NCBI GenBank assembly: GCA_016787725.1
Contig: JAEUTZ010000016.1
Coordinates: forward strand, 186,001-250,000
Origin: Cyclobacteriaceae bacterium
GTDB taxonomy: Bacteria; Bacteroidota; Bacteroidia; Cytophagales; Cyclobacteriaceae
Length of the DNA: 64,000 nt
Reading direction: 5' to 3'
The notes below the pieces were generated by a model, which worked only from the letters and a program-made list of their open reading frames with translations, was not told where the DNA came from and did not search any database. Positions within the stretch are counted from its first letter, which is position 1, and every line of letters starts with the position of its first letter. Below, in pieces: positions 2,661 through 11,384 of the stretch. The position numbers and the translations under genes were made by a program.

Positions 2661-2668
2661 TACCTTTG
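2661..2668 (+). promoter_or_regulatory. rocD promoter, -7 element TACCTTTG
   Basis: A perfect TAnnTTTG element whose last three bases form the TTG that could be mistaken for a start codon of rocD. The ATG at 2690 lies 21 bases downstream, giving a leader of roughly 15 bases. The same octamer, in mirror orientation, drives rmuC 50 bases away. No good -33 box is seen. Confidence 0.6.
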
Positions 2669-2689
2669 AACTCATTGAATTTCAAGAGT

Positions 2690-3925
2690 ATGGTTTCCAC
2701 TATTACATCCAGCCTGGAGGCGATTGAATTAGAAGACAAATTTGGTGCTCACAATTATCACCCACTTCCCGTGGTGCTTAACCGGGGCGATGGAGTTTTT
2801 TTGTGGGATGTAGAGGGCAAGCGGTATTACGATTTTCTTTCGGCTTACAGTGCCGTTAACCAAGGGCATTGTCATCCACGCATCATTCATGCCCTGATCG
2901 ATCAGGCCAAGGAGTTGACGTTGACTTCACGGGCTTTTTATAATGATAAGCTGGGGCTAGCCGAAAAGTACGTTTGCGAAACCTTCGGCTACGACAAGGC
3001 TTTATTTATGAACAGTGGAGCGGAAGCCAATGAAACGGCAATCAAGTTGGCACGTAAATGGGGTTATACTAAAAAAGGCATTCCTGATAATGAAGCGGTG
3101 ATTGTAGCGGTGCGAAAGAATTTTCATGGCCGCACCACCACCATCATTTCAGCGTCTTCGGATCCTTCCGCCCGCAAAGGCTTTGGCCCGTTTATGCCCG
3201 GCTTTGAAGTTGTGGAGTACGACAATGTCCAAGTATTGCAAGAAGCGTTGGCCAATGCCAACGTATGTGGCTTATGGATAGAGCCCATTCAGGGCGAGGC
3301 CGGAGTGTATGTGCCAAAGGACGGGTATCTGAAAGCGGCTGCGGATTTGTGCAAACAGCACAATGTGTTGTTGATGATGGACGAAATCCAAACCGGAATC
3401 GGGCGCACCGGCAAAATGCTGGCCAGCGAGCACGAAGATGTTCATCCGGATCTCCTGATTCTTGGAAAGGCACTGTCAGGCGGAGTCCTGCCGATATCCG
3501 TTGTTTTGGCGGATGATGATATTATGCTTGTGCTTAAACCGGGAGAGCATGGTTCAACATTTGGCGGTAATCCGTTGGCTGCAGCTGTTGTAGTGGAAGC
3601 ATTGCAGGTGGTGAAGGATGAAAACCTGGCCGAACAGGCAGATCGGTTAGGAGCATTATTCCGGGACCGGATGACTCAATTGAAAGAAAAATCGTCTTTG
3701 ATAACCTTAGTGCGAGGTAAGGGATTGCTCAATGCCATCGTGATCAATGACTCCCCGCAAAGCGAAACGGCCTGGAACCTTTGTTTGAAGTTTGCCCAAC
3801 ACGGTTTATTGGCAAAGCCTACCCACGGGAACATCATTCGGTTAGCACCCCCATTGGTGATTACCGAAGAGCAGATTCACGAATGTTGCGACATCATCGA
3901 ACGGTGTGTTCTCAATTATAAATAA
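2690..3925 (+). CDS. rocD: ornithine aminotransferase (ornithine-oxo-acid transaminase)
   Basis: A 411-residue class III PLP aminotransferase that transfers the delta-amino group of ornithine to 2-oxoglutarate, yielding glutamate semialdehyde. This links arginine/ornithine to proline and glutamate. Visible features are the NSGAEANE motif (residues ~108-115), the NFHGRT block (~144-149), MMDEIQTG with the cofactor-pyridine Asp (D231), and LGKALSGG with the Schiff-base Lys (K260). The opening FGAHNYHPLPVVL is typical of ornithine aminotransferases as opposed to acetylornithine ones. The start is the ATG at 2690; the TTG at 2666 overlaps the promoter. It stands alone, convergent with the HAD gene. 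Confidence 0.93.
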   Translation: MVSTITSSLEAIELEDKFGAHNYHPLPVVLNRGDGVFLWDVEGKRYYDFLSAYSAVNQGHCHPRIIHALIDQAKELTLTSRAFYNDKLGLAEKYVCETFGYDKALFMNSGAEANETAIKLARKWGYTKKGIPDNEAVIVAVRKNFHGRTTTIISASSDPSARKGFGPFMPGFEVVEYDNVQVLQEALANANVCGLWIEPIQGEAGVYVPKDGYLKAAADLCKQHNVLLMMDEIQTGIGRTGKMLASEHEDVHPDLLILGKALSGGVLPISVVLADDDIMLVLKPGEHGSTFGGNPLAAAVVVEALQVVKDENLAEQADRLGALFRDRMTQLKEKSSLITLVRGKGLLNAIVINDSPQSETAWNLCLKFAQHGLLAKPTHGNIIRLAPPLVITEEQIHECCDIIERCVLNYK

Positions 3926-4026: not shown

Positions 4027-4644
4027 TTAGCGGATCACTCCCAGTTTTATTAAATCGGTTTTTAATTGATCGGGTGAATGAAAGCGAATGCCCGGTAATC
4101 CGACAGCCTGAGCGCCTTCAATATTTCGCTGACTATCATCAATGAACAAAGCGGTTCTAGGATTAACCCGATACCGATCAAACAGAATCTGGTAGAACTC
4201 CGGGAAGGGTTTCCTGGTTTTTTCATGGCCGGAAACCACAATGCCTTCAAACCAGTGGAGAAACTCAAATTGCTGCAACGCCCAGGGAAAAGTTTGGGCC
4301 GACCAATTGGTAAGCGCATACAAGCGATGCTGATCCTGTTCTTTGATTTGTTTTAGAATTTCAACAGTATCATGAATAGGGCCGCTAATCGTTTCTTGCC
4401 AACGTCCATACCACGCACGAATGGCGGCCTCGTGCTCCGGAAATTTTTCTACCAGCTCCTGGGTGGCCTCTTCAAAAGGTCGGCCGGCATCTTGTCTTTC
4501 ATTCCAATCATGCGTACAAATGTTTTCCAAAAACCAGGTTACTTCGTCTTCGGTGGAAAAGATCTTACGGTAGAGATACCGGGGGTTCCAGTCGATTAAT
4601 ACAGCTCCGAGGTCAAAAATTATGGTGTCGATTGAGTTCTTCAT
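4027..4644 (-). CDS. HAD-superfamily hydrolase (YihX-like phosphatase)
   Basis: A 205-residue cytosolic haloacid-dehalogenase-fold protein. Motif I is IIFDLGAVLIDW with nucleophile D11; the second acid is Gly (DxG), as in the YihX sugar-phosphatase branch. Motif II is LTNWS (T112), motif III K145 (TRKPFPEFY), and motif IV FIDDSQRN (D169, D170). The helical cap insert (residues ~15-90) places it in subfamily I. It probably dephosphorylates a small metabolite such as a hexose-1-phosphate, but substrates cannot be told from sequence. It follows the esterase gene by two bases and is probably co-transcribed with it. Confidence 0.85.
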   Translation of the reverse strand: MKNSIDTIIFDLGAVLIDWNPRYLYRKIFSTEDEVTWFLENICTHDWNERQDAGRPFEEATQELVEKFPEHEAAIRAWYGRWQETISGPIHDTVEILKQIKEQDQHRLYALTNWSAQTFPWALQQFEFLHWFEGIVVSGHEKTRKPFPEFYQILFDRYRVNPRTALFIDDSQRNIEGAQAVGLPGIRFHSPDQLKTDLIKLGVIR

Positions 4645-4646
4645 CT

Positions 4647-5465
4647 TCAGGATTCATTTGAAAAAGCCCATTTCAAAAAATGAGGCATTGCCTCGGCCCA
4701 GGTTTTTAAATTGTGTTCTCCGTTTTTTAGTTCCAGGTAATGGATGTCGTGAAAGGGCCGGTACCCTTTTTTTACCAATTCAACGATCAGGTCGAGGGTA
4801 TCATCGATGCTATCGATGACTCCATTTTTATTGCGATCGCTGTGTTCATCTTTTAACCCCGTTTGAAACCAGAAAGTTAATCCCGGCTTAAAGCGACCTT
4901 TGCGGATTTGCTGGTGCATGATGCGATCATAGTAATCCGAGTAAAACCGGCTTTTCGAATCGCGCTTCCGCCACCAAAAGGAACCACTGAATGCGCCCAC
5001 CTTTCCAAAGTAATCGGCATGATGCCAGGCAATATCCAGTGCCGACAGCCCCCCCAACGAAAATCCACTAATGGCCCGTTGCGATTTGTCTTTGGAAATG
5101 GAGTACTGGTATTCCAAATAAGGAATTAACTCAGTCATGATAAACCGGGTATAGTTTTTAGCCCGGGTACCTCTTTTCTTAAAATCGGGTTTGTTGGCGA
5201 CTCCGTATTCCTGCATTCGGTCTCCGGCATGAACCCCCACCACAATAACATCCTTGATTTCTTTGCTACGGGTTAATTTCTCCAGGGTAGTTTTTAAGCC
5301 AATGGCCTGTCCGTCCTGGCCATCGTTTAGAATCAACAAGGGATAATGCTTTTCGGCCTTTTTGTATTGAAAGGGCAAATAAATATCCACCACCGTATCG
5401 CGTTCAAGCAATTTGGAGTGGATATCGGTAAGTTTTTCGAGGTGATAATGATGAAGGGCGGACAA
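4647..5465 (-). CDS. esterase-D-like alpha/beta hydrolase with a Ca-loop-like insert
   Basis: A 272-residue member of the putative esterase family (Esterase D/enterochelin-esterase type). The nucleophile elbow is GFSLGG (S136) and the catalytic His is H251 in NGEHNLKTW; the acid is probably in the DEHSD segment (207-210). That segment continues as DRNKNGVIDSID, which has the spacing of an EF-hand-type calcium loop (D210, N212, N214, D218, D221). No signal peptide is seen. The start is TTG; the frame is closed by TAA two codons further upstream, so no ATG is available. The gene is divergent from the amidoligase operon, 95 bases away, and its likely substrate is unknown. Confidence 0.8.
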   Translation of the reverse strand: MSALHHYHLEKLTDIHSKLLERDTVVDIYLPFQYKKAEKHYPLLILNDGQDGQAIGLKTTLEKLTRSKEIKDVIVVGVHAGDRMQEYGVANKPDFKKRGTRAKNYTRFIMTELIPYLEYQYSISKDKSQRAISGFSLGGLSALDIAWHHADYFGKVGAFSGSFWWRKRDSKSRFYSDYYDRIMHQQIRKGRFKPGLTFWFQTGLKDEHSDRNKNGVIDSIDDTLDLIVELVKKGYRPFHDIHYLELKNGEHNLKTWAEAMPHFLKWAFSNES

Positions 5466-5560: not shown

Positions 5561-6271
5561 ATGCCGTACGAACATTACCATAAATGGTACTCACCCCGAC
5601 TAAGCCGCGATATTGAAGTGTTGGCATTTGGTACCCGGGGGTATCCGGTTATTTTATTTCCCACCTCGATGGGCCATTTTAATGAGAACAAGGATTTCAA
5701 GTTGATTGATAGCGTTGCCTGGTACCTTGATGAAGGATTGGTTAAAATTTATTGTCCGGATGGCATTGACGCGATGAGTTGGTATAATAAAGGGATTCAT
5801 CCGGCAGACCGCGTACGGAACCACATCTGGTACGATGAAATGTTGCTGCATGAATTGGTTCCCCTGGCACAACGCGAAACTGGCGTGAGCCGCGTAGCCA
5901 CTGCCGGCTGTAGTTTTGGTGGGTATCATGCCACCAATTTTGCATTCAAACATCCGGAGGTAGTCAAGTATGTATTCAATATGGGGGCCGCGTTCGACAT
6001 CCGCGATCAACTGGATGGATATTATGATGACAATGTTTATTTCAACAACCCGCCCGACTTTATGCCGAGCGCCAGCCATCCTTACTTTTATGATATGTAT
6101 GTAGTATTGGGCACCGGCACCCACGACATGTGTTGGGATGCCAATGTTAAGATGGCAAACATTCTCCAAAACAAGGGAATGCACTATTGGCTGGATGTTC
6201 GCCCCAATGCTCCACACGATTGGCCGGCCTGGCGTGAAATGTTCCCGCACTATTTGTCATTGATCCGATAG
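5561..6271 (+). CDS. esterase-family alpha/beta hydrolase, first gene of amidoligase operon
   Basis: A 236-residue cytosolic alpha/beta hydrolase of the Esterase D-like type. The nucleophile elbow is AGCSFGGYHA (S118) and the likely catalytic His is H219 in APHDWPAW; the acid is probably D189 in THDM. The segment FPTSMGHFNENKDF (residues 33-46) carries the oxyanion region. It lacks the long cap of lipases, so a small soluble ester, thioester or amide is plausible. It begins a run of six genes separated by 2, 2, 23, 8 and -4 bases. Its job is therefore tied to the ligases downstream, for instance releasing or editing their product. The exact substrate is unknown. Confidence 0.82.
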   Translation: MPYEHYHKWYSPRLSRDIEVLAFGTRGYPVILFPTSMGHFNENKDFKLIDSVAWYLDEGLVKIYCPDGIDAMSWYNKGIHPADRVRNHIWYDEMLLHELVPLAQRETGVSRVATAGCSFGGYHATNFAFKHPEVVKYVFNMGAAFDIRDQLDGYYDDNVYFNNPPDFMPSASHPYFYDMYVVLGTGTHDMCWDANVKMANILQNKGMHYWLDVRPNAPHDWPAWREMFPHYLSLIR

Positions 6272-6273
6272 GT

Positions 6274-7191
6274 ATGTTCCGGATCCTCCTGGTTATTTGT
6301 TTGTTCTCTACGGGGTCCGTTGGTAAATCGATTAATCACGCGGAGGCCGTCACCATTGGAGGTATTAAACAATGGATGAAATGGGAAGGAATCGATGATC
6401 AGGCCCCCGTTTTACTTTTTCTTCACGGTGGCCCGGGAAACTCGGTCATGGCTTATGCCGATAAGTTTACCAATCAGCTTAAACAGCATTTTGTAGTAGT
6501 TCACTGGGATCAACGACAAAGTGGAAAGACGGCAACCCTCAATGAATCTCCGGTATCGGTTGATTTGATTGTGCGGGATGCGGTGGAAGTGGTTCACTAT
6601 TTAGCGGGGCACTTTACCCAAGATAAAATTTACGTCATGGGGCACTCCTGGGGAGGATATTTGGCATTACGCGTTGCCGCTGAAATACCCCAACGGCTAG
6701 TGGCGTGCATTGCCATCAGCCCGATGATTCATCAATTGGAGAGTGAAACCCTTTCGCTTTCGCTAATGAAAGCGGAAGCGGCCCAGTTGAAAAATGTGGA
6801 AAGCTTAAACGAACTGAATCAGGTCACCATTCCTTTCCACAATACTACCCAACTGTATTATCACCGAAAATGGTTAAGCAACCTGATGGGGACGAACCCA
6901 CCCTCCCGCCATCGGGTTGAACAGTGGGCAACTCTCTGGTTGCCGGTATTTCTTGAAGCCTCTCAAACCAATTTTTTTGAATTTGCACCTGCACTCGCTT
7001 GCAGGTTGTTTTTCCTGGTGGGCAGGCTCGACTATCAAACTCATTATAAATTAACCGAAAGTTATTATCAACAAGTAGTTTGCCCTGAAAAAAAACTATA
7101 TTGGTTTGAGCAATCGGCACACAATCCGCACTTAACAGAAACAATGAAATTTGAACAAACCGTAATTGACATAAAGAACCAAATTAACTAG
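6274..7191 (+). CDS. exported prolyl-iminopeptidase-like alpha/beta hydrolase
   Basis: A 305-residue protein with an N-terminal signal peptide (hydrophobic residues 3-16, cleavage probably near residue 18-25) and a complete S33-peptidase-like active site: oxyanion HGGPG (51-55), DQR (79-81), nucleophile GHSWGG (S125), acid in VGRLDYQT (D253) and His in SAHNPHL (H283). HGGPG plus GxSWGG is the signature of proline iminopeptidase and related amide hydrolases. Known prolyl iminopeptidases are mostly cytosolic, so export to the periplasm is notable. It lies two bases after the esterase and two bases before the ATP-grasp gene. It may cleave the operon's amide-linked product, or its precursor, outside the cytoplasm. 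Confidence 0.85.
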   Translation: MFRILLVICLFSTGSVGKSINHAEAVTIGGIKQWMKWEGIDDQAPVLLFLHGGPGNSVMAYADKFTNQLKQHFVVVHWDQRQSGKTATLNESPVSVDLIVRDAVEVVHYLAGHFTQDKIYVMGHSWGGYLALRVAAEIPQRLVACIAISPMIHQLESETLSLSLMKAEAAQLKNVESLNELNQVTIPFHNTTQLYYHRKWLSNLMGTNPPSRHRVEQWATLWLPVFLEASQTNFFEFAPALACRLFFLVGRLDYQTHYKLTESYYQQVVCPEKKLYWFEQSAHNPHLTETMKFEQTVIDIKNQIN

Positions 7192-7193
7192 CT

Positions 7194-8222
7194 ATGAAAA
7201 AGATCGGAATCCTACACGGCATGGAACGCTCCTTTCCGGATGCATTTGTTGAGCGTATCAATAAGATGGGATTAAAAGACATAAAAGCCGAGTCGGTTAT
7301 TGTGGACATGGTGCAACAGGCTGAACCAACTGACTATGCCGTCATCATCGACCGGATCTCACAGGATGTTCCTTTTTATAGGGCCTACTTAAAAAATGCC
7401 GCCATTTCAGGAACCGCAGTTATCAATAATCCATTTTGGTGGAGCGCGGATGAAAAATTTTTCAACAATGCCTTGGCGGTCAAGATTGGAGTGCCGGTTC
7501 CTAAAACTGTAATCCTCCCATCGCACGAGCGCCCAACCGATACGGGCGAAGCTTCTTTCAGCAACCTCAAGTTTCCGTTGAGTTGGGAGAAAATCTTTGA
7601 TCACATCGGCTGGCCGGCCTACATGAAGCCGCATGCGGGAGGCGGTTGGAAAAGTGTTTACAAACTCAACAACATGGACGATTTCTTCAAAGCCTATGCG
7701 GAGACCGGCCAATTGGTAATGATGCTGCAAGAGGAGATTATTTTTGAAGATTACTTCCGCTGTTATTGCCTGGGCAGAAAGTATGTACGCATTATGCAAT
7801 ATGAGCCCCGCAATCCACATCATTTGCGGTACCAGAGTACTAAGGGACCTGCTTCCGAGAAATTGCTAAAGAAAGTGCACGACTACGTCTTAGACTTGTG
7901 CAATGCACTGGGGTATGATTTTAATACGGTTGAAATGGCGGTTCGCAACGGTGTCCCCTATGCCATCGATTTTTGTAACCCCGCTCCCGATGCAGATGTA
8001 AATTCGGTTGGGCAGGAGAATTTTGATTGGGTGGTTGAGCACGCGTCACGCATGGCGGTTGAACGTGCCCAGGCACAGAGGCCAGGTAAGGATAATTTAA
8101 CGTGGGGTACCTTTGTCACAAGTTCTGTCGCTGCCTTCGAAGGAGGATTGATAAAGCCAGCACCGGCCATCAAAGTGGAAACCAAAAAAGCTCCGGCTAA
8201 ACCGAAAGCATTTAAAAAGTAA
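7194..8222 (+). CDS. ATP-grasp ligase
   Basis: A 342-residue protein with ATP-grasp features: YMKPHAGGGWKSV (K145 and glycine loop 149-151) for ATP phosphates, LQEEI (E180/E181) at the adenine hinge, and the metal-binding pair FNTVEMAV (E247) and YAIDFCNPAPDAD (D259, N262). ATP-grasp enzymes activate a carboxylate as acyl phosphate and couple it to an amine or thiol. The protein looks closest to RimK/glutathione-synthetase-like amino-acid ligases, but no specific family is assignable. The last ~25 residues form a basic Ala/Lys/Pro tail (APAIKVETKKAPAKPKAFKK) outside the fold. The next gene is a GCS2-type ligase, so two ligation steps on one product are likely. Confidence 0.83.
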   Translation: MKKIGILHGMERSFPDAFVERINKMGLKDIKAESVIVDMVQQAEPTDYAVIIDRISQDVPFYRAYLKNAAISGTAVINNPFWWSADEKFFNNALAVKIGVPVPKTVILPSHERPTDTGEASFSNLKFPLSWEKIFDHIGWPAYMKPHAGGGWKSVYKLNNMDDFFKAYAETGQLVMMLQEEIIFEDYFRCYCLGRKYVRIMQYEPRNPHHLRYQSTKGPASEKLLKKVHDYVLDLCNALGYDFNTVEMAVRNGVPYAIDFCNPAPDADVNSVGQENFDWVVEHASRMAVERAQAQRPGKDNLTWGTFVTSSVAAFEGGLIKPAPAIKVETKKAPAKPKAFKK

Positions 8223-8245
8223 TCACCTGATTCAGTAGTTGGCGT

Positions 8246-9343
8246 ATGGAAAAATTTACATTGGGGGTAGAGGAGGAATACATGGTGATTGACCCCACCA
8301 CCCGGGAACTTACCTCGCACGATCAGAAAATAGTAGAGTTGGCTGCCCATGTGATTAAGGACAGTGTGAAGGCAGAAATGCATCAGGCGGTGGTGGAGGT
8401 AGGTACGGGAATTTGTCAGGACGTTACCCAGGCCCACCAGGAAATCAGAACGCTTCGCAAAGTGGTTTCGGAAATTGCCGGCACGTTAGGTTTAAAAATC
8501 GGAGCTTCGGGTACACACCCGTTTTCGCATTGGAGCAAACAGTTAATTACACCCAATCCACGGTATGATGAGATCGTGCAAGAGATGCAGGAAGCGGCCC
8601 GTTCCAATTTGATTTTTGGACTGCATGTACACGTGGGTATTAAAGACAAGAATATGGCCATCCATATTCAAAATACAGTGCGCTATTTTTTACCGCACAT
8701 CTATGCATTGTCCTGCAATTCCCCTTTTTGGGAAGGTCGCAATACCGGGTTCAAGTCCTTTCGAACCAAAGTCTTCGATAAATTTCCTCGCACCGGTATC
8801 CCCGACCGGTTTGAAAGTTGGGATGACTTCAAGAATTATGTTAACCTGTTGATCAAGACAAATTGTATTGACAACGCTAAGAAAATTTGGTGGGACGTTC
8901 GTGTTCATCCTTTCTTTGATACGATTGAATTCAGAATTTGCGATGTACCCATGCGGGTAGAGGAAACTATCGCCATTACAGCTTTGTTTCAGGCTCTGGT
9001 GGTGAAGTTGTATAAACTGCGGTTGCAGAACATGAGTTTCATCATGTACACGCGGGCGCTGATCAATGAAAATAAATGGCGCGCTTCACGGTATGGATTG
9101 GATGGCCGGTTAATTGATTTTGGAAAGCAGGTAGAACTGGATACACGGGGGTTAATTCTTGAATTGCTTGAATTCGTAGATGATGTCGTGGATGAACTTG
9201 GCAGCCGCAGCGCCATCAATTATATTCGCACCATATTGGAGCAGGGAACAGGGGCGGATCGTCAACTCGCAGTATACCGCGAAACCGGAAGCTTGGAAAA
9301 AGTAGTGGATTATATCCTCGATGAAACCCTGCAGGGATTATAA
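8246..9343 (+). CDS. carboxylate-amine ligase, GCS2/YbdK family (COG2170)
   Basis: A 365-residue member of the glutamate-cysteine ligase 2 family. The diagnostic blocks are present: GVEEEYMVID (7-16) with metal-binding acidic residues, EVGTGI (51-56), GLHVHVG (H127, H129) and WDVRVHPFFDTIEFRICD (216-233). Relatives include E. coli YbdK (weak glutamate-cysteine ligase activity) and EgtA. The reaction is ATP-dependent joining of a carboxylate, often the gamma-carboxyl of glutamate, to an amine. It is length-typical and looks intact. Placed between an ATP-grasp ligase and a glutamine amidotransferase, it probably makes an intermediate of a small peptide-like molecule. Confidence 0.9.
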   Translation: MEKFTLGVEEEYMVIDPTTRELTSHDQKIVELAAHVIKDSVKAEMHQAVVEVGTGICQDVTQAHQEIRTLRKVVSEIAGTLGLKIGASGTHPFSHWSKQLITPNPRYDEIVQEMQEAARSNLIFGLHVHVGIKDKNMAIHIQNTVRYFLPHIYALSCNSPFWEGRNTGFKSFRTKVFDKFPRTGIPDRFESWDDFKNYVNLLIKTNCIDNAKKIWWDVRVHPFFDTIEFRICDVPMRVEETIAITALFQALVVKLYKLRLQNMSFIMYTRALINENKWRASRYGLDGRLIDFGKQVELDTRGLILELLEFVDDVVDELGSRSAINYIRTILEQGTGADRQLAVYRETGSLEKVVDYILDETLQGL

Positions 9344-9351
9344 CAACCGCA

Positions 9352-10191
9352 GTGATCACAGAAAGTCAAATTAATATTGCCGTACTGGATTTGTACGAGG
9401 GGGTAGCCAACGAAGGCATGCGGGGCATCCGTCAACTGATTGAGGAGTTTCAAGCCGATTGCCACCTGCAGGTAAAATATCAGGTTTTTGATGTACGACT
9501 GAAGTCAGAAGTTCCGGACTTAAGTTTTGATGCGTACATTTCTTCGGGAGGCCCGGGTAGCCCACTGGACAGTAAGGGCTCGCTCTGGGAGCGAAAATAT
9601 TTTTCACTTATGGATTCGATCCGTGAGCATAATCATCAGCACCCCGAAAGCAAAAAGCATGTTTTGTTAATTTGTCATAGTTTTCAGGTGTATTGCCGAT
9701 ACTATGGATTAGGGTTGGTGTCCAAACGCAAGTCCACTTCCTTTGGCGTGATGCCGGTACACAAGACCTTTGAAGGTCATCATGATCCGCTGTTTCGTTC
9801 GTTGAATGACCCGCTATGGGCGGTCGACTCCAGGGATTATCAGATTACGCAACCCGATCAGGAAAGAATTGAAGCCCGGGGCGGGGCAGTGCTCTGCATT
9901 GAGAAATTCAGACCCCATGTTGATCTGGAACGGGCCGTCATGGCCATCCGGTTTGATGATGCGTTTATTGGTATGCAGTTTCATCCCGAAGCCGATGCAG
10001 TAGGGATGCGCATGTATTTACTTCGGGATGATAAAAAGGAATATGTCATCGATAAATACGGAGAAAAGAAATATTGGGACATGCTGGATCATTTAAATGA
10101 TCCAGATAAGATTATGCTCACCTATTCTACAGTCGTTCCCCGGTTTTTAATGATGGCATTCCGTCATCGGTTAAGCTCGGTACCATCATGA
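9352..10191 (+). CDS. class I glutamine amidotransferase-like protein
   Basis: A 279-residue class I amidotransferase-fold protein. The triad is visible as C108 in LLICHSFQ and H211/E213 in GMQFHPEAD; the oxyanion region SSGGPGSP lies at 64-71. The nucleophile elbow reads CHSFQ instead of the usual GICLGHQ, which occurs in divergent GAT1 proteins. It may supply ammonia from glutamine, or act as a gamma-glutamyl hydrolase. About 60 extra residues follow the core (residues ~220-279). The start is GTG, eight bases after the GCS2 stop; no ATG fits. Its stop overlaps the next gene by four bases (ATGA), so the two are translationally coupled. Confidence 0.85.
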   Translation: MITESQINIAVLDLYEGVANEGMRGIRQLIEEFQADCHLQVKYQVFDVRLKSEVPDLSFDAYISSGGPGSPLDSKGSLWERKYFSLMDSIREHNHQHPESKKHVLLICHSFQVYCRYYGLGLVSKRKSTSFGVMPVHKTFEGHHDPLFRSLNDPLWAVDSRDYQITQPDQERIEARGGAVLCIEKFRPHVDLERAVMAIRFDDAFIGMQFHPEADAVGMRMYLLRDDKKEYVIDKYGEKKYWDMLDHLNDPDKIMLTYSTVVPRFLMMAFRHRLSSVPS

Positions 10192-11384
10192 TTGCCTCCG
10201 CCCGCCAAGTATTCAACCAGCAGTTTTCTACCGAAAAATATCAGCAGTTTATAGCCGACCTGGATCAGGAGTTTAAATACAAAATTCCGTTTCGGGTAGC
10301 GGAAAGTCCGGTTTTTGTTGGAAAGGAGTTTGCCGGAAAACTTTTTAAGGCAGCCGATGAAATTATTGATTTTATTGCCCAGCCGGGATTTAAGGGGAAG
10401 ATGGCAGGCGCCTTACCCGCCCACCTCAAAGTTCCGAATGAAGATGACCATACCTTGTTTTTAGCGTTGGACTTTGCTGTTTGTTCGGAGGAAGGCAGCA
10501 GAGAGCTTGTGCCTAAATTAATTGAGATGCAAGGATTTCCATCGTTGTTTGGGTATCAGGATTTTCTCGGCAATAAGTTTCGCCAGCATTATCAGATTCC
10601 GGCCAACCTGAATTTTCATTTCGGAAGTGACTCACATCAATATTGGGAACGCATTCGAAAGGCCATTATAAAGAACCACCATCCGGACAACGTGATTCTG
10701 CTGGAAATCAATCCCATGAAGCAGAATACCGCCATCGATTTTCTGGTTACCAGGCAACACCTGGGGATTGAACCTGTTCATTTGGGCGACATCAGGATCC
10801 GGAATCGCAAACTATTTTATAAGAAGCAAGGGATAGAAGTGCCCATCCACCGTATTTACAACCGGGTAATATTCGATGAGTTGTTGGCACAAAAGGATTT
10901 AAAAACGGAATTCCATTTAACCGAAGAAGTGGAAGTAGAATGGGCCGGCCATCCCAATTGGTTTTTTTACATCAGCAAATACACCATGCCTTTTCTTGAG
11001 AGCAATTCCGTGCCTGAGTGTAAATTCCTGAGCGAATATGAAACGCTACCCAAAAACCTGGATCAATACGTACTGAAGCCCTTGTTTTCATTTTCCGGAA
11101 GTGGAGTGATTTTTCATGTTACGGAGCAGGACATCAAAGATATTCCCGAGGGCGAGCGTAAAAACTTCATGTTGCAGCGAAAGGTGCATTATGAACCGGT
11201 TATTCAGGCTCCGGATGGACTGGTAAAAACAGAAATCCGGCTGTTATTTTTATGGGATGCCGGCCAGCCCCGCCCGCAATTGATTACCAATCTGGCCCGC
11301 CTGAGCCGGGGCGATATGATTGGCGTGAAATACAACAAAGACAAAACCTGGGTAGGTGGTTCGGTTTGCTTTTTCGAATCCTAA
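10188..11384 (+). CDS. ATP-grasp-like protein, possibly circularly permuted, last gene of the operon
   Basis: A 398-residue cytosolic protein that I do not assign to a named family. Residues ~141-200 (NFHFGSDSHQYWERIR, VILLEINPMKQNTAIDF, then HLGDIRI) followed by a C-terminal nucleotide-binding-like part (YVLKPLFSFSGSGV around K297, KTEIRLLF with E349, NLARLSRGDMIGVKYN) resemble permuted ATP-grasp proteins such as glutathionylspermidine synthase. There the phosphate-binding glycine loop and the metal-binding Glu/Asn come late in the chain. The ATG overlaps the amidotransferase stop by four bases. If active, it would be the third amide-forming enzyme in the operon. It could instead be an inactive scaffold. 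Confidence 0.65.
   Translation: MIASARQVFNQQFSTEKYQQFIADLDQEFKYKIPFRVAESPVFVGKEFAGKLFKAADEIIDFIAQPGFKGKMAGALPAHLKVPNEDDHTLFLALDFAVCSEEGSRELVPKLIEMQGFPSLFGYQDFLGNKFRQHYQIPANLNFHFGSDSHQYWERIRKAIIKNHHPDNVILLEINPMKQNTAIDFLVTRQHLGIEPVHLGDIRIRNRKLFYKKQGIEVPIHRIYNRVIFDELLAQKDLKTEFHLTEEVEVEWAGHPNWFFYISKYTMPFLESNSVPECKFLSEYETLPKNLDQYVLKPLFSFSGSGVIFHVTEQDIKDIPEGERKNFMLQRKVHYEPVIQAPDGLVKTEIRLLFLWDAGQPRPQLITNLARLSRGDMIGVKYNKDKTWVGGSVCFFES

Follow-up and report, generated by a model that had tools for sequence, protein, structure and literature searches.

The window analyzed here is a stretch of 64,000 nucleotides from a Cyclobacteriaceae bacterium of the phylum Bacteroidota (contig JAEUTZ010000016.1, positions 186,001 to 250,000), and our subject is a group of six closely spaced genes in it, designated A to F, together with a divergent esterase gene, G. 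Genes A to F lie at positions 5561-11384, all on the plus strand, with spacings of 2, 2, 23, 8 and -4 bp in the order A-B-C-D-E-F. An earlier note on this DNA had given the same positions and spacings, which the coordinates of the open reading frames (ORFs) bear out, and had interpreted the six genes as a dedicated multi-ligase pathway for a small amide-linked compound. That interpretation held in outline but not for gene B, and it missed G, a further ligase Z, the replacement of F by another ligase X and linked peptidases of the M17 and M29 types.

Gene A (5561-6271) encodes a small esterase of the alpha/beta-hydrolase type (PF00756, E 2.5e-7, over the cut-off), and gene B (6274-7191) an exported alpha/beta hydrolase (PF00561, E 1.9e-17) whose best NCBIfam match, to TIGR01250, a model for proline iminopeptidases (E 1.2e-19), scored 71 bits and stayed under the cut-off of 167.65. 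The product of C (7194-8222) is an ATP-grasp ligase remotely similar to RimK. It matched no Pfam family at E 0.01, its NCBIfam match to TIGR00768 (rimK_fam; E 9.6e-7) reached 28.4 bits, under the cut-off of 143.4, and comparison with RimK by HHalign gave E 0.0077. D (8246-9343) is a full-length carboxylate-amine ligase of the GCS2/YbdK type, matching PF04107 (E 1.1e-65; 222.4 bits, cut-off 21), PRK13515 (538.7 bits, cut-off 371), TIGR02050 (312.9 bits, cut-off 176.4) and, by HHalign, Escherichia coli YbdK (E 3.9e-48). E (9352-10191, GTG start) has the class I glutamine-amidotransferase fold (PF00117, E 9.5e-9; 35.6 bits, cut-off 22.8). For F (10188-11384; 398 amino acids) neither Pfam nor NCBIfam gave a family at E 0.01; from HHalign comparisons, it is probably a circularly permuted ATP-grasp ligase of the YgiC kind. 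G (4647-5465, minus strand) is a PF00756 esterase (E 3e-35) that diverges from the operon across 95 bp; it also matched an enterochelin esterase model at E 2e-17, well under the cut-off of that model. A gene for a HAD-family hydrolase (4027-4644, minus strand) lies 2 bp from G, and a neighbour of the same size was seen in three other loci (L100, L102 and L103). None of the six operon proteins matched the PADLOC-DB anti-phage defence library at E 0.01, and in the PHROGs phage library only the hydrolases A (weakly) and B found matches.

Putative catalytic residues, with roles assigned from the respective families, are conserved across the module. K145, D259 and N262 of C were invariant in 124 sequences, where 95 positions showed at least 95% identity, and by family resemblance these three would be the ATP-grasp lysine and the terminal acidic and asparagine metal residues. 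In D, the residues G7, E9, E10 and E11 (GxEEE) were invariant in 114 sequences; this is the motif that PMC2588565 gives as GhExE, the metal/ATP motif of the GCS2 family. F kept D95, E113, Q115, K264 and K297 without exception in 97 sequences. The earlier note had named loss of ATP- and metal-binding residues as a sign against its reading, and the alignments of C, D and F displayed conservation of the putative residues instead. Among the hydrolases, the Cys-His-Glu residues of E (C108, H211, E213) were invariant in 84 sequences, the putative triad S118, D212, H219 of A was present in 96-97% of 96 sequences, and G had S136 and H251 in 63 of 63 sequences and D206 in 97%.

The distribution of the genes was surveyed in 148 genomes taken evenly from the phylum, with an initial threshold of E 0.001 (E 1e-30 for B). 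Matches were found in 60 genomes for C, 49 for F, 42 for E, 52 for D, 72 for A and 7 for B. Weak matches were then removed, namely C in G007 and G087 (33-34% identity), D in G004 (34%), E in G040 and G060 (E-value about 5e-4), secondary weak D matches, and A in 10 of the 72 genomes, where the match was weaker than about E 1e-30; G066, whose F gene is divided between two contig ends, was scored as F-positive. After filtering, C was present in 58 genomes, F in 49, E in 40, D in 51 and A in 62. All of the 58 genomes with C also had A, while D was found in 50 of them, F in 48 and E in 40; A occurred in four of the 90 genomes without C as well. The combinations observed were A C D E F (28 genomes), A C D F (18), A C E (6), A C D E (4), A C E F (2), D F (1) and A alone (4), and 85 genomes had none of the five genes.

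A further ATP-grasp ligase, X, gave strong matches in 10 genomes, and these coincide with the 10 C-positive genomes that lack F, a replacement of F by X. Fisher tests on the ten pairs of A, C, D, E and F gave P values from 1.3e-10 to 7.6e-37. When labels were shuffled within families (119 of the 148 genomes had a family label, and seven families were mixed for C), the agreement of C with A, D, E, F or F-or-X stayed below that of the real data in all 20,000 shuffles of each test. The Fisher values and the within-family shuffling together place the co-occurrence of the five genes beyond chance, and A, C, D, E and F form the conserved core, E being a frequent rather than a constant member since it is absent from 18 of the 58 C genomes.

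Physical linkage was less strict than co-occurrence. Of the C genomes that have the gene in question, the fraction with it within 6 kb of C was 28 of 58 for A, 32 of 50 for D, 29 of 40 for E and 30 of 48 for F. For genomes with two copies of A, the copy nearer C was taken, which in G124 is not the best match. All five genes lay within this distance in 14 of the 28 genomes holding all five. The idea that these are housekeeping enzymes with separate roles that are commonly adjacent could draw on that number and on the joint absence of D and F from some genomes. It is contradicted by the Fisher and within-family tests, by the complementarity of F and X, and by 13 genomes from four families, not to be read as 13 independent events, in which A, C, D and F are all present with A, D and F all outside the 6-kb range around C; we regard it as very improbable. 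The most telling evidence in this analysis for a single pathway is that the genes are inherited together in many environmental Bacteroidota even when unlinked, and it points to a shared small peptide-like molecule. The earlier note had raised the question of whether the six genes co-occur in the same order in other Bacteroidota and had held that homologues scattered without conserved linkage would refute a pathway. The genes do co-occur across the phylum, often in the same order; scattering is seen in part, as the 14 of 28 linked genomes indicate, yet the scattered genes are inherited together.

For the neighbourhoods, 140 loci were fetched; 12 in which the simple ORF caller called no C gene were omitted and L049 and L179, which are one and the same record, were merged, leaving 127 dereplicated loci. 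A scan of contigs with C matched at least 594 stretches. The record titles of the best 80, which were kept, name Bacteroidota or Ignavibacteria, and the closest named relatives of C among these 80 came from metagenome genomes of Flammeovirgaceae and Cyclobacteriaceae. A plasmid search with C and with F gave no match. D was the most frequent neighbour within 6 kb of C (100 of the 127 loci), followed by F (76), E (75), A (74) and G (66); B and Z each occurred in 8 loci, X and Y each in 5 and an M29-type gene in 2, and 16 loci had none of these. G was on the strand opposite to C in 65 of its 66 placements. In a strict search it was detected in 14 of the 148 genomes, all C-positive, and in 13 of the 14 it adjoins the module by coordinates; the divergent esterase belongs to the module neighbourhood. 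B behaved differently. Its eight loci, the window included, are confined to the genus of the window and near relatives, and of the seven surveyed genomes with B only the window genome and G146, of the same genus, carry it at this locus. Standing between A and C, B is an insertion local to this lineage and not core, and the place in the pathway that the earlier note had given this hydrolase is not supported.

Several other neighbours were recorded. In close relatives (L100:14178-14762, L101, L102 and L041:6246-6803) the start of an ORF of 185-195 amino acids coincides with the end of F or is only a few bases from it; the two tested matched no Pfam family, and the window lacks it. A gene resembling those of serine carboxypeptidases (PF00450, tested in L202) forms a pair with D in L200, L202, L204, L205, L206, L207, L210 and L212. 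A trio of genes after D in Chitinophagaceae was rejected as part of the module, as it begins with an ECF-type sigma factor and looks unrelated. The ornithine aminotransferase of the window (2666-3925) was likewise set aside, its orthologues (85-88% identity; 71% for a fragment) being found only in L100 to L103.

Genes that suggest catabolism adjoin the module in some lineages. An aromatic/histidine ammonia-lyase (PF00221) is encoded near C in all seven loci of family f22 that have C (L073, L074, L075, L079, L084, L088 and L092), with 66-68% identity to the gene of L084 and gaps to C of -59 to 509 bp in the five loci measured. Where F is apart from C in families f22 and f25, a YtcJ-like amidohydrolase gene (PF07969, tested in L191) stands directly beside F, in nine loci altogether (L180, L181, L182, L184, L185, L186, L187, L191 and L193), and in L217 it is E that has a member of this cluster next to it. 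An AgcS gene follows F in L179. In Dyadobacter and its relatives (L111, L119, L127, L138, L142, L150, L159 and L172), F is followed by an ArgD-like transaminase gene of like orientation; it is 31-33% identical to the ornithine aminotransferase of the window and is a different gene.

With these neighbours in mind, the module might serve the use of amines or amino acids, D glutamylating an amine as protection during its breakdown and E removing the glutamyl group, as in the putrescine (Puu) pathway. However, three or four ATP-dependent ligases would be costly for catabolism, and the neighbours vary between lineages. The HHalign match between E and PuuD spans only 26 columns (E 0.0029), and no Puu-type oxidase or aldehyde dehydrogenase recurs among the clusters found in at least 10 loci. 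A catabolic module therefore appears unlikely to us, and a biosynthetic one is preferred.

The earlier note had called F a second ATP-grasp-like protein, which the profile comparisons with GspS/YgiC-like proteins favour, while Pfam and NCBIfam offered no family for it. HHalign gave E 1.6e-6 (probability 90%) for F against seven GspS/YgiC-like proteins, E 1.2e-4 (55%) against two of them and E 4.5e-5 (69%) against E. coli YgiC alone. Gss alone was not matched (E 0.25), and comparisons with the unrelated E. coli proteins YbdK, GshB, PuuD, PuuA, RimK and GshA gave 0.06 or worse. The window protein had no PF03738 match at E 1 (cut-off 29.3), and the window genome is without PF03738, whereas 2 of the 12 members of alignment set A2, which includes two X proteins, matched this family (best E 0.0018). 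In profile searches of the PDB the best hit of F was YgiC (7uk8, E 0.056), and the alignment including two X proteins found 3n6x at E 0.023.

Read from the alignment, D95, E113, Q115, K264 and K297 of F stand opposite D318, E330, N332, K498 and K533 of Gss, which we take to be its Mg and ATP residues. By profile comparison F has the fold of the glutathionylspermidine synthase/YgiC family and a core collinear with it. Its residues at these five positions would be a tentative counterpart of the Gss set, with four alike and Gln in place of N332; R316 and R538 are not kept. Because the core residues align and the two arginines are not kept, F was read as a YgiC-type ligase and not filed as a glutathionylspermidine synthase; it is probably a circularly permuted ATP-grasp ligase remotely related to YgiC. 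The RefSeq name of YgiC is peptide--spermidine ligase, and YgiC and YjfC are termed peptidylpolyamine synthetases in PMC12568646. On a plasmid of Bacillus subtilis (L246:1-1245 and 1267-1521) a gene of the glutathionylspermidine synthase family is followed by one of the poly-gamma-glutamate hydrolase family.

The composition of the module varies in further ways. Z, another ATP-grasp ligase, was found in 33 of the surveyed genomes, all of them C-positive, and adjoins the module together with an M17 aminopeptidase in four loci. Two of these (L061 and L063) have the order Z-A-C-D-E-F with the M17 gene just upstream; in the other two (L123 and L144), A-C-D-E-F faces Z-M17-G. The M29-type gene occupies the place of E in both genomes where it was found, which hints at a hydrolytic role for E. 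Three natural versions of the module can thus be recognized, F with E, F without E and X with E, and Z is a candidate accessory ligase.

Ligases and peptidases in one neighbourhood could also mean peptide tagging, in which a cellular protein would receive amino acids or an amine from the ligases, to be taken off again by E, the M17 and M29 peptidases, A or G. C is RimK-like, and the RimK family includes the modifier of protein S6 (annotation of L251); PafA, the Pup ligase, is a relative of GCS2 according to PMC2588565; and a single cellular target would explain the very high conservation of C. But D is of the YbdK type and not PafA-like, the neighbourhoods hold no recurring small conserved protein or additional partner, the operon gaps of -4 to 23 bp are too small for a precursor gene, and free peptidases and esterases suit a small molecule better. 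We give tagging little credence as compared with the synthesis of a free small amide.

Stand-alone ligases of this kind are known from other pathways. D resembles YbdK as a full-length GCS2/YbdK member with the GxExE motif, but YbdK stands alone in E. coli while D is tied to C, F and A. The same enzyme classes reportedly occur in the amidoligase neighbourhoods of Iyer and colleagues (2009), who are said to have predicted peptide-making neighbourhoods with ligases and peptidases. Another GCS2-like family is found beside a GATase-like thiol peptidase according to a related 2008 paper (PMC2588565). In fungal E-64 biosynthesis, as described in PMC12568646, the ATP-grasp enzyme Cp1B and an amide bond synthetase assemble an acid, an amino acid and an amine without a nonribosomal peptide synthetase (NRPS), and YgiC and YjfC are among the close structural homologues of Cp1B. 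That system differs in that its second ligase is of the ANL type and its warhead oxygenase has no counterpart in the module. In pseudouridimycin formation, PumK and PumM are two stand-alone amide ligases that act in turn on a small molecule, adding glutamine and then guanidinoacetate (PMC7955054). No nucleoside or guanidinoacetate genes were identified in the module, and the likeness drawn here is one of pathway description. By these comparisons the module would be a variant of NRPS-free amide-ligase pathways, already known as a kind. The literature searched, mostly titles and the starts of abstracts, with subscription papers and preprints outside its range, yielded no description of this gene set that we recognized, and the Iyer 2009 paper may hold one.

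The example of pseudouridimycin raises the question of a secondary metabolite, such as an antibiotic or a siderophore-like dipeptide amide. PF00756 includes siderophore esterases, and G has its match, though below the cut-off, to the enterochelin esterase model. A presence in 58 of 148 genomes from many families, with co-inheritance of scattered genes, is more like core metabolism, and the clusters seen near C in at least 10 loci, those outside the module being partly annotated, include no gene identified as a regulator, an exporter or a tailoring oxygenase. A specialized product of this sort thus seems improbable.

Taken together, we lean towards a module that builds and recycles a small peptide-like cytosolic amide, perhaps capped with an amine, independently of NRPS and ribosome. 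In such a pathway the first step would fall to D, which would form an acyl phosphate from a carboxylate (the gamma-carboxyl of glutamate being the likeliest) and couple it to an amine. C would lengthen the product of D through another amide bond. The carboxylate still free in this intermediate may then be coupled to an amine by F, or by X in its stead, much as YgiC does with peptides and spermidine, and Z would perform another ligation in part of the phylum. The cysteine hydrolase E may either trim a glutamyl or amide group or supply ammonia; its role as an ammonia donor to a synthetase is an unproven candidate, and the linked M17 and M29 peptidases of other lineages would favour trimming. The serine hydrolases A and G could remove an ester or acyl group from the substrate or the product.

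Some observations weigh against this proposal. D is absent from six C genomes that have X, therefore gamma-glutamyl chemistry does not hold for every module. The resemblance of C to RimK is distant, and that of E to PuuD is confined to 26 columns. The catabolic neighbours of some lineages leave room for an amine-use pathway, and protein tagging stands as an alternative at the low probability indicated above. As for the products proposed in the earlier note, a modified polyamine gains some weight from the YgiC likeness of F, the family of D is the one indication of a gamma-glutamyl peptide, and a thiol found no direct support.

A bolder version of the proposal, which we consider rather unlikely when taken as a whole, is a new and complete metabolite system of Bacteroidota built like glutathione metabolism, with a new class of low-molecular-weight peptide conjugate as its product. 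D and C would then correspond to the two synthetase steps, F or X would join the peptide to a polyamine or other amine, and Z would vary the product. E with the M17 or M29 peptidases might dismantle it, and the PF00756 esterases might act on an ester or thioester of the product, as S-formylglutathione hydrolase does.

Culturable hosts of the module are available in Pedobacter, Dyadobacter, Runella and Algoriphagus. Stand-alone ligases for small amides were already known, and the notable part is a ligase set co-inherited across the phylum. Three to four ligases inherited as a unit across Bacteroidota, whether linked or not, would imply a metabolite of general use in this phylum that is unnamed in the literature searched.

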